Part shown: positions 19,009 through 21,691 of the stretch, in pieces
Numbering within the stretch: position 1 is the stretch's first letter
Layout of the letters: each line of letters starts with the position of its first letter
Assembly (NCBI GenBank): GCA_016235445.1
Contig: JACRLB010000034.1
Location: 1 to 52,348 of the forward strand
From: Chloroflexota bacterium
GTDB lineage: Bacteria > Chloroflexota > Anaerolineae > Anaerolineales > Villigracilaceae
Length of the DNA: 52,348 nucleotides
Direction: 5' to 3'
Program-made: the position numbers and the translations under genes
The notes under the pieces: model-generated
Told to the model about the DNA's origin: nothing
What the model saw: only the letters and a program-made list of their open reading frames with translations
Database searches by the model: none

Positions 19009-19149
19009 TGTAGCGCGAGATATTAGACGTTATCGGAAATAACGCACAGGCACCGTCCCGAAGGTTTTTCTTGAGGAATTTGAACTCCTGACAACAACCT
19101 TCGGGACGTTTTTTCTAATTACCGATAAAGTCTATTATCTCGCGCTACG
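19009..19149. mobile_element. Large inverted-repeat element with ~31-bp imperfect ends
   Basis: GTAGCGCGAGATATTAGACG (beginning about 19014) is mirrored near the right end by the complement of CTATTATCTCGCGCTAC, with TTATCGG and CCGATAA inside. Within the loop, ACCGTCCCGAAGGT and ACCTTCGGGACG form another pair that recurs in the MITE family at 38294 and 42742. No flanking duplication is evident. Confidence 0.5.
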
Positions 19150-19209: not shown

Positions 19210-19659
19210 TTATGGTTCGATGGGATATCCTGCATCCGCCCAGGCGGCGAGTCCGCCGAGGAGTGCGTCCACTTTTGAATATCCATTTTGCAAGAGGAGG
19301 AACGCCGCACGGGCGCTCGTGTGTTCATTTTGTCAGGTGCAGTAGGTGATGATCCACTGATTTTTTTCGAGTGAGAGACTGCCGAGGTTGTTCTCGATAT
19401 TTGCCAATGGAATCGAGATCGCGCCACCCGCATGGTTTGCGGCATAATATTCCACGCTTCTCACATCCACGATGATGGCCTGACCTGAGTCGAATGCGGC
19501 TTTGGCGTTCTCCACGTTGATGCGCGGAACGTCCGCTTCGGTTTGCGGCGTTGGTTGCGTTGGGATGGCGGTGGAAGTTGTTTGCGGCAACGCAGAGTTG
19601 CAGGCGAGGGCGGCAAGCAACAGAATTGAAAACGCTACGAGCGGTTTATATTTTTTCAT
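19210..19659 (-). CDS. Rhodanese-domain lipoprotein with in-frame TGA at the catalytic cysteine (probable selenoprotein)
   Basis: The frame starts MKKYKPLVAFSILLLAALAC with a lipoprotein cysteine at residue 20, followed by a Thr/Pro linker and a rhodanese domain (DVRSVEYYAANHAGGAISIPL about 65-86). At codon 109 there is TGA (19333-19335), then the frame continues without another stop to TAA at 19210-19212: QNEHTSARAAFLLLQNGYSKVDALLGGLAAW and IEP. In rhodaneses of the CxCPNExxSA type the second cysteine is the nucleophile; TGA falls precisely on it (YCT-TGA-QNEHTSA). A hairpin follows at 19300-19326. Read-through gives 149 residues, a normal size. Without recoding the protein ends at 108 and lacks the active site. 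Selenocysteine is inference; the alternative is a nonsense mutation. Confidence 0.75.
19300..19326 (-). promoter_or_regulatory. Candidate bacterial SECIS hairpin after the in-frame TGA
   Basis: In the mRNA sense, nucleotides 7-10 after UGA (GAAC) pair with 30-33 (GUUC), and 12-15 (CACG) pair with 22-25 (CGUG). The 6-nt loop AGCGCC holds a G at position 17 after the UGA. Bacterial SECIS elements lie just downstream of UGA within the coding region and carry an unpaired G in the loop, so placement fits; the stem is short and irregular. Confidence 0.4.
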
Positions 19660-19741: not shown

Positions 19742-21544
19742 TTACAACTGGCAATAGCGATCCACGCGCTTGCCGATGATGGCGAGGCTGTCGGCCCAGA
19801 ATTTTTTGGTGCGGATGTTGATGCCGAACTGGTCGGCCAGGTCTGCGGCGCGGGCTTCGCCTGTGGCGGCGAGCAGGGCCTTGTAGGCGGGGACAAATTC
19901 TGCGCCGCGTTTTTGATAGATGGCGTACAAGCCAGTGGCGAAGAGCAAGCCGAAGGTGTAGGGATAGTTGTAGAAGGAGAATCCGCTGGTGTAGTAATGC
20001 GGTTTCCAGGTCCACATGAATTTTTGCAGGTACTTTTCGTCCAGGCCTTCGCCGTAGGCGGCTTTTTGCGCGCGCTCCATGATGTCGTTGAGATCGTCGG
20101 CGGAGAGTTCAGATTTGGCGCGGCGCTCGAAGACTTCCTTCTCGAAGAGGTAGCGGGAGTAAATATCCACGACCACCTGCGAGGCGTTGTTCATCTGCGC
20201 TTCGAGCACGGCCAGAATTTCCTGTGGATCGGTGACTTGCTCCAGCACCGCTTCGGTGACGATGGTCTCGCACATGATGGAGGCGGTTTCGGCGAGCGTC
20301 ATCGGCGTGGCTTGTTGCAATTCGGTTTTGTTCGCCTGATAGGCGCATTCATTGTGGAAGGCGTGGCCGAGTTCATGCGCCAGCGTGCTGACCTGGTCGA
20401 GCGAGCCGTCAAAGTTGGAGAGGATGCGGCTTTCCTTCACTCTGGAAACGCCCATGCAGAACGCGCCGCCGCGTTTGCCTTCGCGCTGTTCGGCGTCGAT
20501 CCAGTTGTTGTCGAAGGCGCGTTTGGCGAAGGCGCCGAGTTCGGGTGAGAATTTGTTGAAGTTGCTGACGATAAAATCGCGCGCCTCGTCCCACGAGTAG
20601 ACTTTGTCGGTCTTGCCCATCGGGGCGGATAAATCCCACCAGGCGAGTTTTTCCTTGCCGATCAATTTGGCTTTCTGTTTGAAATAACGCTCGAACATCG
20701 GGAAGGAGTCTTTCATCGCGCCGAGCATGGCGTCCAATGTGGGACGGTCGATGCGGGCAAAATCCAGCGAGGCGTGGACGGCATCTTCGCGTCCGCGTTT
20801 TTTATCGAGGGTAAGCGTCTCACCCTTGACCCCGTTCATGCAGGCCGCCAATGTTTCTTTGATGCCCTCCCAGGCGACGTTCTCGGCTTCGTATCCACGG
20901 CGGCGGGTGGCTTCGTCGGGGTGCGAGCGCAGGTTGATCAGCGCGGGCATGGGCATCTTTTGGGTTTTGCCGTCCAGCTCAAAGTCCACGGTGAGTTGCG
21001 AAGTCACCGTCCCTTGCAATTTGCCAAAGGCGTTGCCTCCGCTCAAGGTCAGTTCGGCGGCGAGGATTTCTTCCGCTTCGCTCATCAAATATTTGGATTG
21101 TTCTGCGGCTTCGTTGAGCGAGAATTCGTGTGACTTTGCCGAGGGGTTTGTCTTCGCGGCTTTCTTGATGGCGGCTTTGCCCAAGGTTCCAACCCAGGCT
21201 TGGAATTTGGTGTTGAGTACGCTGGCCTGCACCGACATTTGCTCGAACTCCGAGAGGGCGCGCATGGCGTCCTGGTTGTGAGAGTCGGTGGTGACGAAGG
21301 AGTAGATGTAGGGATTGATGGTTCCCGAAAGCTCAAAGAGCGCGTTGAACCTGTCCACGGATTCGCCGAGTAGTTTGCCGAGTTTCTTCGGGTCGGCCTT
21401 TGAATCGGCTTTGCTGGCTTTCTTGAAAAACACTTCCATTTCATCCAGCGCGGACTTGTACTTTTTGATGGCGTTCTTGAATTCCTTTGAATCAAGCGAG
21501 GGATAGACGTTGGTCATATCCCAGCGGGTTGCGGAAACGGTCAT
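19742..21544 (-). CDS. pepF: M3-family oligoendopeptidase F
   Basis: The 600-residue cytoplasmic zinc metallopeptidase cleaves medium-length peptides. The zinc-binding motif HELGH is at about residue 388 in ALAHELGHAFHNE, with the third zinc ligand glutamate some 25-30 residues later in ETASIMCET. The N-terminal all-helical part (about 1-190) resembles the PepF cap. ATG 21544 has an AAGGAGATC ribosome site and is preferred over the upstream frame at 21574. The gene is separate from the rhodanese by 82 bp and ends normally. Confidence 0.92.
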   Translation of the reverse strand: MTVSATRWDMTNVYPSLDSKEFKNAIKKYKSALDEMEVFFKKASKADSKADPKKLGKLLGESVDRFNALFELSGTINPYIYSFVTTDSHNQDAMRALSEFEQMSVQASVLNTKFQAWVGTLGKAAIKKAAKTNPSAKSHEFSLNEAAEQSKYLMSEAEEILAAELTLSGGNAFGKLQGTVTSQLTVDFELDGKTQKMPMPALINLRSHPDEATRRRGYEAENVAWEGIKETLAACMNGVKGETLTLDKKRGREDAVHASLDFARIDRPTLDAMLGAMKDSFPMFERYFKQKAKLIGKEKLAWWDLSAPMGKTDKVYSWDEARDFIVSNFNKFSPELGAFAKRAFDNNWIDAEQREGKRGGAFCMGVSRVKESRILSNFDGSLDQVSTLAHELGHAFHNECAYQANKTELQQATPMTLAETASIMCETIVTEAVLEQVTDPQEILAVLEAQMNNASQVVVDIYSRYLFEKEVFERRAKSELSADDLNDIMERAQKAAYGEGLDEKYLQKFMWTWKPHYYTSGFSFYNYPYTFGLLFATGLYAIYQKRGAEFVPAYKALLAATGEARAADLADQFGINIRTKKFWADSLAIIGKRVDRYCQL

Positions 21545-21691
21545 GAGTGATCTCCTTGTGAAAAGATGAGGCAAGTATACCGTGATTGGTTTAAGGGAAA
21601 ACCCTGCTGAAGAAGGGATATTTCCAGGAACTTTTCGTGAGTTTTTCAGTCAATTTTGGAGTAAAGTTAACATATAAACTGGAGGCGTTTT

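Follow-up and report, generated by a model that had tools for sequence, protein, structure and literature searches.

A predicted selenocysteine-containing CxU rhodanese, probably a lipoprotein, in an Anaerolineales genome and its relatives with a second UGA codon

The stretch of DNA analysed here (the window, 52,348 nucleotides long) carries at 19210..19659, on the minus strand, a gene predicted to encode a selenoprotein, namely a rhodanese-domain lipoprotein. Its frame of 149 codons plus TAA opens with an ATG at 19659, closes with the TAA at 19212-19210 and contains one in-frame TGA, codon 109, at 19335-19333. A sequence-only reading made earlier had pointed to a TGA at 19333-19335 inside an otherwise complete rhodanese; it gave no strand, and the TGA is indeed there, in a gene on the minus strand. 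With this codon read through, the product has 149 residues, the motif reads YCT-U-QNEHTSARAAFLLLQNGY just as that reading had described it, and the frame runs on through LLGGLAAW up to the TAA. Residues 50-142 (19234..19512, minus strand) match the rhodanese domain PF00581 at 48.3 bits against a gathering score of 22.2, and both this score and the predicted fold, described below, identify the region as a rhodanese domain.

The N-terminus (19600..19659, minus strand) shows the pattern of a signal peptide ending in a lipobox, LLLAALAC-N, whose ALAC would place a lipidated cysteine at residue 20; it is this motif that speaks for a lipoprotein. A lenient version of the lipobox pattern, with the start codon chosen to fit, is present at 29 of the 30 loci L020-L049; of the 85 remaining TGA homologues only 5 have it, and some of the 85 start with a hydrophobic stretch instead. 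The protein is thus probably an exported, membrane-anchored lipoprotein of rhodanese fold. The gene lies 82 bp downstream of a gene for an M3-family oligoendopeptidase on the same strand (19742..21574, minus strand), and this neighbour is kept in 28 of the 29 relatives L021-L049 (the exception being L024), which suggests that the selenoprotein gene has long been resident at this locus. Also next to the gene, window positions 19010-19148 hold an interspersed repeat, palindromic and some 120-140 bp long, that matches its own reverse complement. At E <1e-11 it occupies at least 27 genomic places; with 40 of 138 candidates scored, 61 matches are listed, many of which are one place seen on both strands.

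An AlphaFold2 model built from 65 sequences had a mean pLDDT of 89.9, and beyond residue 40 its block means are 97-98; the best solved fold was 3tp9 (Z 17.8, rmsd 1.6 over 104 residues). In this model, strand beta4 spans residues 102-106, a helix starts at residue 110 (110-124) and a further strand follows at 130-133, so that the TGA codon would fall immediately before the helix.

Reading a UGA as selenocysteine calls for a dedicated machinery, and the sequence-only reading had proposed a search of the genome for selA, selB, selC and selD; all four are present, each above its cut-off. The host genome (4.13 Mb, 98.28% complete) holds a tRNA-Sec scoring 70.3 bits against a cut-off of 47, with ARAGORN in agreement and reporting the anticodon tca, and profile searches returned SelB at 339.5 (cut-off 242.25), SelA at 463.8 (22.8) and SelD at 348.6 (125). 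Among 14 control genomes, scores above the cut-off were obtained for tRNA-Sec in five and for SelB, SelA and SelD in two each; the tRNA-Sec model is therefore the least specific of the four machinery searches and is not specific enough when taken by itself. Judged by its genes, the host is equipped for selenocysteine synthesis. The host SelD gene (L018) itself holds one in-frame TGA (SACAG-U-ASKL), and its product is likely a selenoprotein too. A reading of UGA as a general sense codon was rejected, given that 3 of 20 hand-picked long open reading frames in the window end in TGA and that tRNA-Sec is present.

The conservation of the TGA codon was assessed by searching 301 genomes of the order with the read-through protein, which gave a match at E 1e-6 in 226 of them; from the matches listed we fetched all 115 that bear a TGA, together with 35 listed without one. 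The residue aligned to position 109 is TGA in 114 homologues, and the 115th, L149, has TGA in the same column on a contig that stops two residues past it, so that the column is identical in 115 of 115 TGA homologues among the matches listed. The 35 matches without TGA comprise three close orthologues (L132, L133 and L134) and 32 more distant rhodaneses. Among the 118 homologues of this type (L020-L135, L149, L150), 115 thus carry TGA, two carry cysteine and one tyrosine. The cysteines, in L132 and L133, stand at position 109 and provide the Cys/Sec pair typical of selenoprotein families. Alignment at this position had been proposed as a check, and it returned TGA in 115 of 118 homologues; the accompanying expectation that relatives carry a cysteine did not hold, cysteine being found in only two of the 118. 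In L134, from genome G201, the Sec/Cys position is occupied by tyrosine (YCDY); two sister copies have cysteine, and the G201 genome has SelA.

In a tree of 89 hand-picked rows and 101 columns, L132, L133 and L134 form one starred clade (96) drawn inside the selenocysteine rows, a placement that fits a loss of selenocysteine, although 48 of the tree's 86 inner branches are open. Beyond the order, GTDB genomes were scanned with an IUPAC pattern, a scan from which the host genome itself, or genomes very close to it, may be absent. The scan yielded at least 118 stretches, two of them (L238 and L240) chance-like, from Acidobacteria, Rokuibacteriota, Gemmatimonadetes, Nitrospirae, Deltaproteobacteria, Chloroflexi and others; some of these stretches are probably the same records as those among the genomes of the order search. 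The nearest named relatives among the matches listed are L228, identical at 98 of 144 aligned residues, and L182, identical at 92 of 149, from Chloroflexota and Anaerolineales metagenome bins; they place the host in the Chloroflexota, probably among the Anaerolineales. A phylum-wide search found TGA rhodaneses elsewhere in the phylum as well, from which four loci and nine further stretches were taken. In G579, G596, G640, G384, G623 and others, the TGA rhodanese matches lie within open frames of about 530-690 codons and are possibly fusions.

These data bear directly on the simplest alternative, namely that a rhodanese gene of the cysteine type shows the TGA through a nonsense mutation or an error of assembly. 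Cysteine orthologues do exist (L132 and L133), and one copy with the same TGA, discussed below, does decay. Against this, the identical codon is TGA in 115 homologues among the matches listed, from at least 93 genomes, and again in more than 100 GTDB stretches from several phyla, some of them probably overlapping the 93 genomes; in addition, coding constraint persists after the TGA. We consider a mutation or error exceedingly improbable and rejected it on the conservation of the TGA column, which bears out the earlier view that a TGA at this very codon is not a random nonsense event.

The constraint downstream of the TGA can be seen in codons 122-149, past the hairpin described below: the comparison with L021 gave pN 0.079 and pS 0.240, and six further pairs gave pN 0.151-0.282 and pS 0.645-0.803. 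Purifying selection acts after the TGA, and the earlier remark that downstream residues stay conserved is upheld among homologues (pN < pS). Seven residues (E112, S115, A116, A119, G126, G135 and P146) are invariant in the 33 sequences of alignment A2, which, like the 65 of alignment A3, were hand-chosen for spread. It is established in general that selenocysteine insertion and termination compete at UGA, which lends some plausibility to a second alternative, in which UGA 109 would be a regulated stop, with a 108-residue short form as the main product and the selenocysteine form made only when selenium is plentiful. By the model, such a short form would still have its signal peptide and the larger part of the domain; it would also be left without Sec109, helix 110-124 and strand 130-133, and the region past the TGA is under purifying selection. 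We regard a regulated stop as very improbable.

Co-occurrence with the machinery points in the same direction as selenocysteine decoding. A SelA match was found in 91 of the 93 genomes with a listed TGA homologue and in 159 of the 208 others (Fisher p 5.6e-7, a value that ignores kinship; at least 93 of the 301 genomes bear such a homologue, as counted among the matches listed). The two exceptions are of different kinds. G269 (88% complete) is without a SelA match and has SelB and tRNA-Sec above their cut-offs, so SelA is probably just absent from the bin. G273 (98% complete) had no SelA match and no SelB or tRNA-Sec above the cut-offs, and its copy of the gene, L108, has an extra TAG upstream of the TGA. 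This is the decaying copy mentioned above, and it is a natural case of the gene decaying where the selenocysteine machinery is lost.

A bacterial SECIS hairpin lies within the coding sequence at 19300..19318 (minus strand), with the stem GAGCGCC/GGCGUUC and the loop CGUGC. The 7-bp stem begins 14 nt past the UGA, and the distance from UGA to loop is 21 nt. The hairpin with a loop G that had been proposed is present, with the correction that the conserved G is the 23rd nucleotide after the UGA and not the 17th. Passages of PMC13188914 describe a bacterial SECIS model with a loop of 3-9 nt, a stem of 4-16 bp, a spacing of 16-37 nt, a G within the first two loop positions and a minimum free energy of at most -7.5 kcal/mol. 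The suggested comparison with a SECIS standard came out in favour of the hairpin at 19318-19300, which agrees with every one of these printed constraints: a loop of 5 nt, a stem of 7 bp, G at position 2, a spacing of 21 nt and a minimum free energy of -11.1 kcal/mol for the UGA plus 45 nt.

The hairpin is also conserved as a structure. Alignment A1 covers 48 nt from the TGA in 107 distinct sequences out of 114 (L149, which is cut, was omitted) and is gap-free downstream of the UGA. Stem pairing was found in 87.4% of 749 cells, against 30-53% in slid controls, which preserve kinship. Five of the seven stem pairs showed two-sided changes, with 32 such cells against 8.6 in shuffles, which ignore kinship; none of 500 shuffles reached the percentage paired, the number of cells changed or the covariation score. 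Two of the five covariation measures gave less separation: 15 of 500 shuffles reached the number of pairs with two-sided changes, and 53 of 500 the number of further pair types. In addition, the outer stem pairs 18-36 and 19-35 are formed in only 68 and 63 of the 107 sequences. Codon usage carries a similar signal: beneath the stem and loop (codons 115-119), the top synonymous codon has a frequency of 0.87-0.97, whereas the codons scored up to 98 and those from 122 onwards give 0.25-0.79; values in between are 0.61-0.96 for codons 103-108, 0.62 for codon 110 and 0.85 for codon 112. Since the hairpin overlaps the conserved peptide SARAA, part of its conservation is coding. Furthermore, a portion of the hairpin (AGYGC.CG) is prescribed by the IUPAC pattern used in the GTDB scan; hairpins at the pattern-scan loci are therefore not independent evidence and were left uncounted.

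The machinery, the conserved TGA, the cysteine-type orthologues and the covarying hairpin together argue for the selenocysteine part of the earlier name, a selenocysteine rhodanese lipoprotein, and its lipoprotein part has the lipobox motif behind it. We thus predict, with a probability of roughly 0.93, that this gene encodes a selenoprotein in which UGA 109 is read as selenocysteine. Decoding would be carried out by SelB and tRNA-Sec with the help of the coding-sequence hairpin at 19318-19300, as the computations support. The signal peptide would then be cut before Cys20 and this cysteine lipidated, which would leave the domain on the outer face of the membrane.

How the active site would work is less clear-cut. 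The canonical active-site loop of rhodaneses has six residues, CxxGxR/S. The corresponding loop of the window protein, CTUQNEHTS, is two residues longer and does not match CxxGxR/S, and the additional length forces an alignment gap either before or after the C107/U109 pair (the Cys107 codon lies at 19339..19341, minus strand, and is TGA in nine homologues of the phylum). The 32 distant rhodaneses (L136-L148, L151-L169) were used only to place the canonical cysteine: in pairwise alignments, Cys107 fell on it (in motifs like CRSGNRS) in 25 of the 32, and in the other 7 position 109 fell in a gap. In the profile alignment, the 3tp9 cysteine falls on Cys107 and that of E. coli GlpE on residue 109, and BH2092 (3o3w) has no gap at the motif and its cysteine at 107. 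It is possible that Sec109 is the canonical nucleophile, with the alignments in disagreement on 107 versus 109. The earlier statement that the TGA lies exactly at the predicted nucleophile may accordingly hold: the predicted selenocysteine is one half of a CxU pair, and on which half is the nucleophile the alignments are split.

Cys107 and Sec109 would form this CxU pair where the active-site helix begins. The attacker, most likely the selenolate, would act on sulfane sulfur donated by a persulfide, polysulfide or thiosulfate, or on an oxidised thiol; the pair would resolve through a Se-S bond, and an outside reductant would reopen it. For this chemistry as a whole, selenolate attack, Se-S resolution and reopening by a reductant, we see about even odds. 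The product could be transferred sulfur, as in a sulfurtransferase, or released sulfide, as in a redox reaction, and the sequence does not discriminate between the two. A rival view is that the selenocysteine protein is a redox enzyme, reducing disulfides or peroxides through a CxU selenenylsulfide, and not a sulfurtransferase. The retention of CxU or UxU would fit such a role, as would the missing CxxGxR loop and, in the model, a C107-U109 turn that appears to run straight into the helix; passages of PMC9312934 add that the majority of predicted selenoproteins have thiol-based oxidoreductases as homologues. On the other hand, the fold and the nearest solved structures are rhodanese domains, several of them of sulfane-sulfur enzymes (GlpE and persulfide dioxygenase-rhodanese fusions). 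We place a redox enzyme just short of an even chance, and it competes only with the sulfur-transfer half of the explanation preferred here, leaving a CxU selenoprotein in place either way.

Nine loci of the phylum, in nine genomes, go one step further in that codon 107 is also TGA (YUTU or YUAU; L088, L100, L296, L297, L299, L300, L301, L311 and L312). In these UxU loci, two TGA codons stand one codon apart and a single hairpin follows the second. The loop CGUGC is intact in all nine, as are 5-7 of the 7 stem pairs; for L297, folding by minimum energy predicts a structure other than the hairpin. SelA was found in eight of the nine genomes (G054, G156 and six of the other seven), and G549 (95% complete), which holds L296, gave no SelA match, an absence that either speaks against decoding there or reflects a gap in the bin. 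A phylum-wide search with a UxU pattern matched in 9 of 400 genomes, six of the matches being rhodaneses and three chance-like, against one match for the reversed control pattern. The UxU label requires five changes on the weakly resolved tree, and with 48 of 86 inner branches open these five changes are still compatible with a single origin.

As for what has been written on such sites, the term 'UxU' is absent from the main text of PMC13188914, and among the papers listed for adjacent UGA codons, to judge by titles or the beginnings of abstracts, there was none on bacterial rhodaneses. Judging from sequence, the phylum's CxU rhodaneses may be an exported or membrane-anchored selenocysteine branch with exchangeable chalcogens, in which the UxU members would have selenocysteine at both positions, served by one hairpin, and a diselenide site. 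The absence of SelA from G549 lowered our odds for the UxU reading from slightly better than even to an even bet. In the UxU relatives, nature provides a test case for how one bacterial SECIS might serve two UGA codons six nucleotides apart.

An important question is how the window protein relates to what is already known. The sequence-only reading had called selenium-dependent rhodaneses seldom described, which understates the record: passages of the 2026 catalogue PMC13188914 list rhodanese selenoproteins in five forms, including a CxU form for which NF041203 is named, and the CxU form also appears in passages of the review PMC9312934. Both the Sargasso Sea survey (PMC1088965) and the GOS survey (PMC2398784) had already turned up selenium rhodaneses, according to the excerpted text of each. 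In PMC12013277 (deep-Sep), we found no mention of rhodanese, Chloroflexota or sulfurtransferase. Similarly, among the papers listed for selenoproteins or rhodaneses of Chloroflexi or Anaerolineae, none dealt with such a protein, to judge by titles and abstract beginnings, with passages of PMC1794560 and PMC8318568 also covered.

The closest known system is the family behind NF041203 (rhodanese_LYCAU, 'rhodanese-related (seleno)protein', 'Rhodanese-like domain-containing protein form 3' in its records as excerpted), with which the window protein would share the rhodanese fold, a single selenocysteine and the YC-x-U motif, here YCTU. NF041203 is its best NCBIfam match (E 5.2e-23), and 65 of the 65 members of alignment A3 match it at E 1e-5 or better. 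The window protein nevertheless scores 81.1 bits with Sec read as Cys, below the cut-off of 115, is a predicted lipoprotein and has T in place of A in the motif. None of 400 phylum genomes passed the cut-off in a genome search, which scores the window protein about 7 bits lower (74.3 versus 81.1 with Sec as Cys); the four best matches of that search reach 113.7, 103.8, 100.7 and 98.8 bits over the matched stretch with Sec as Cys, the best being 1.3 short. Among ten CxU proteins from the GTDB pattern scan, four (L189, L191, L222 and L246) passed the cut-off, and in the tree the window protein stands apart from the starred clade L189/L208/L222/L231 (98).

Other known systems are further removed. 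Forms 1, 2 and 4 of the catalogue share selenocysteine in PF00581 proteins, with motifs given in passages of PMC13188914 as UxxS, UxxG and UxxG, unlike the CxU of the window protein. TsoB (NF045694, a rhodanese/DsbD fusion-like selenoprotein) likewise has, according to the same excerpts, selenocysteine in its rhodanese part, there as two residues in a UxxxxU motif in contrast to CxU; the window protein, with 149 residues, scores 25.1 bits against the TsoB cut-off of 805. GlpE (1gmx) resembles the modelled fold (Z 16.7, rmsd 2.2 over 105 residues), and compared with it and other single-domain thiosulfate sulfurtransferases the window protein has a loop two residues longer, no CxxGxR and a predicted CxU in place of a single cysteine. 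CxU selenium rhodaneses are thus, as far as sequence comparison goes, a widespread and already known kind, of which the window protein represents a predicted branch below the curated cut-off. Pipelines that read TGA solely as a stop would truncate such genes at the selenocysteine codon. What is new here is the predicted lipoprotein branch, which is added to the CxU rhodanese selenoproteins and falls under the curated cut-off across 400 phylum genomes, together with its putative UxU relatives with two UGA codons.
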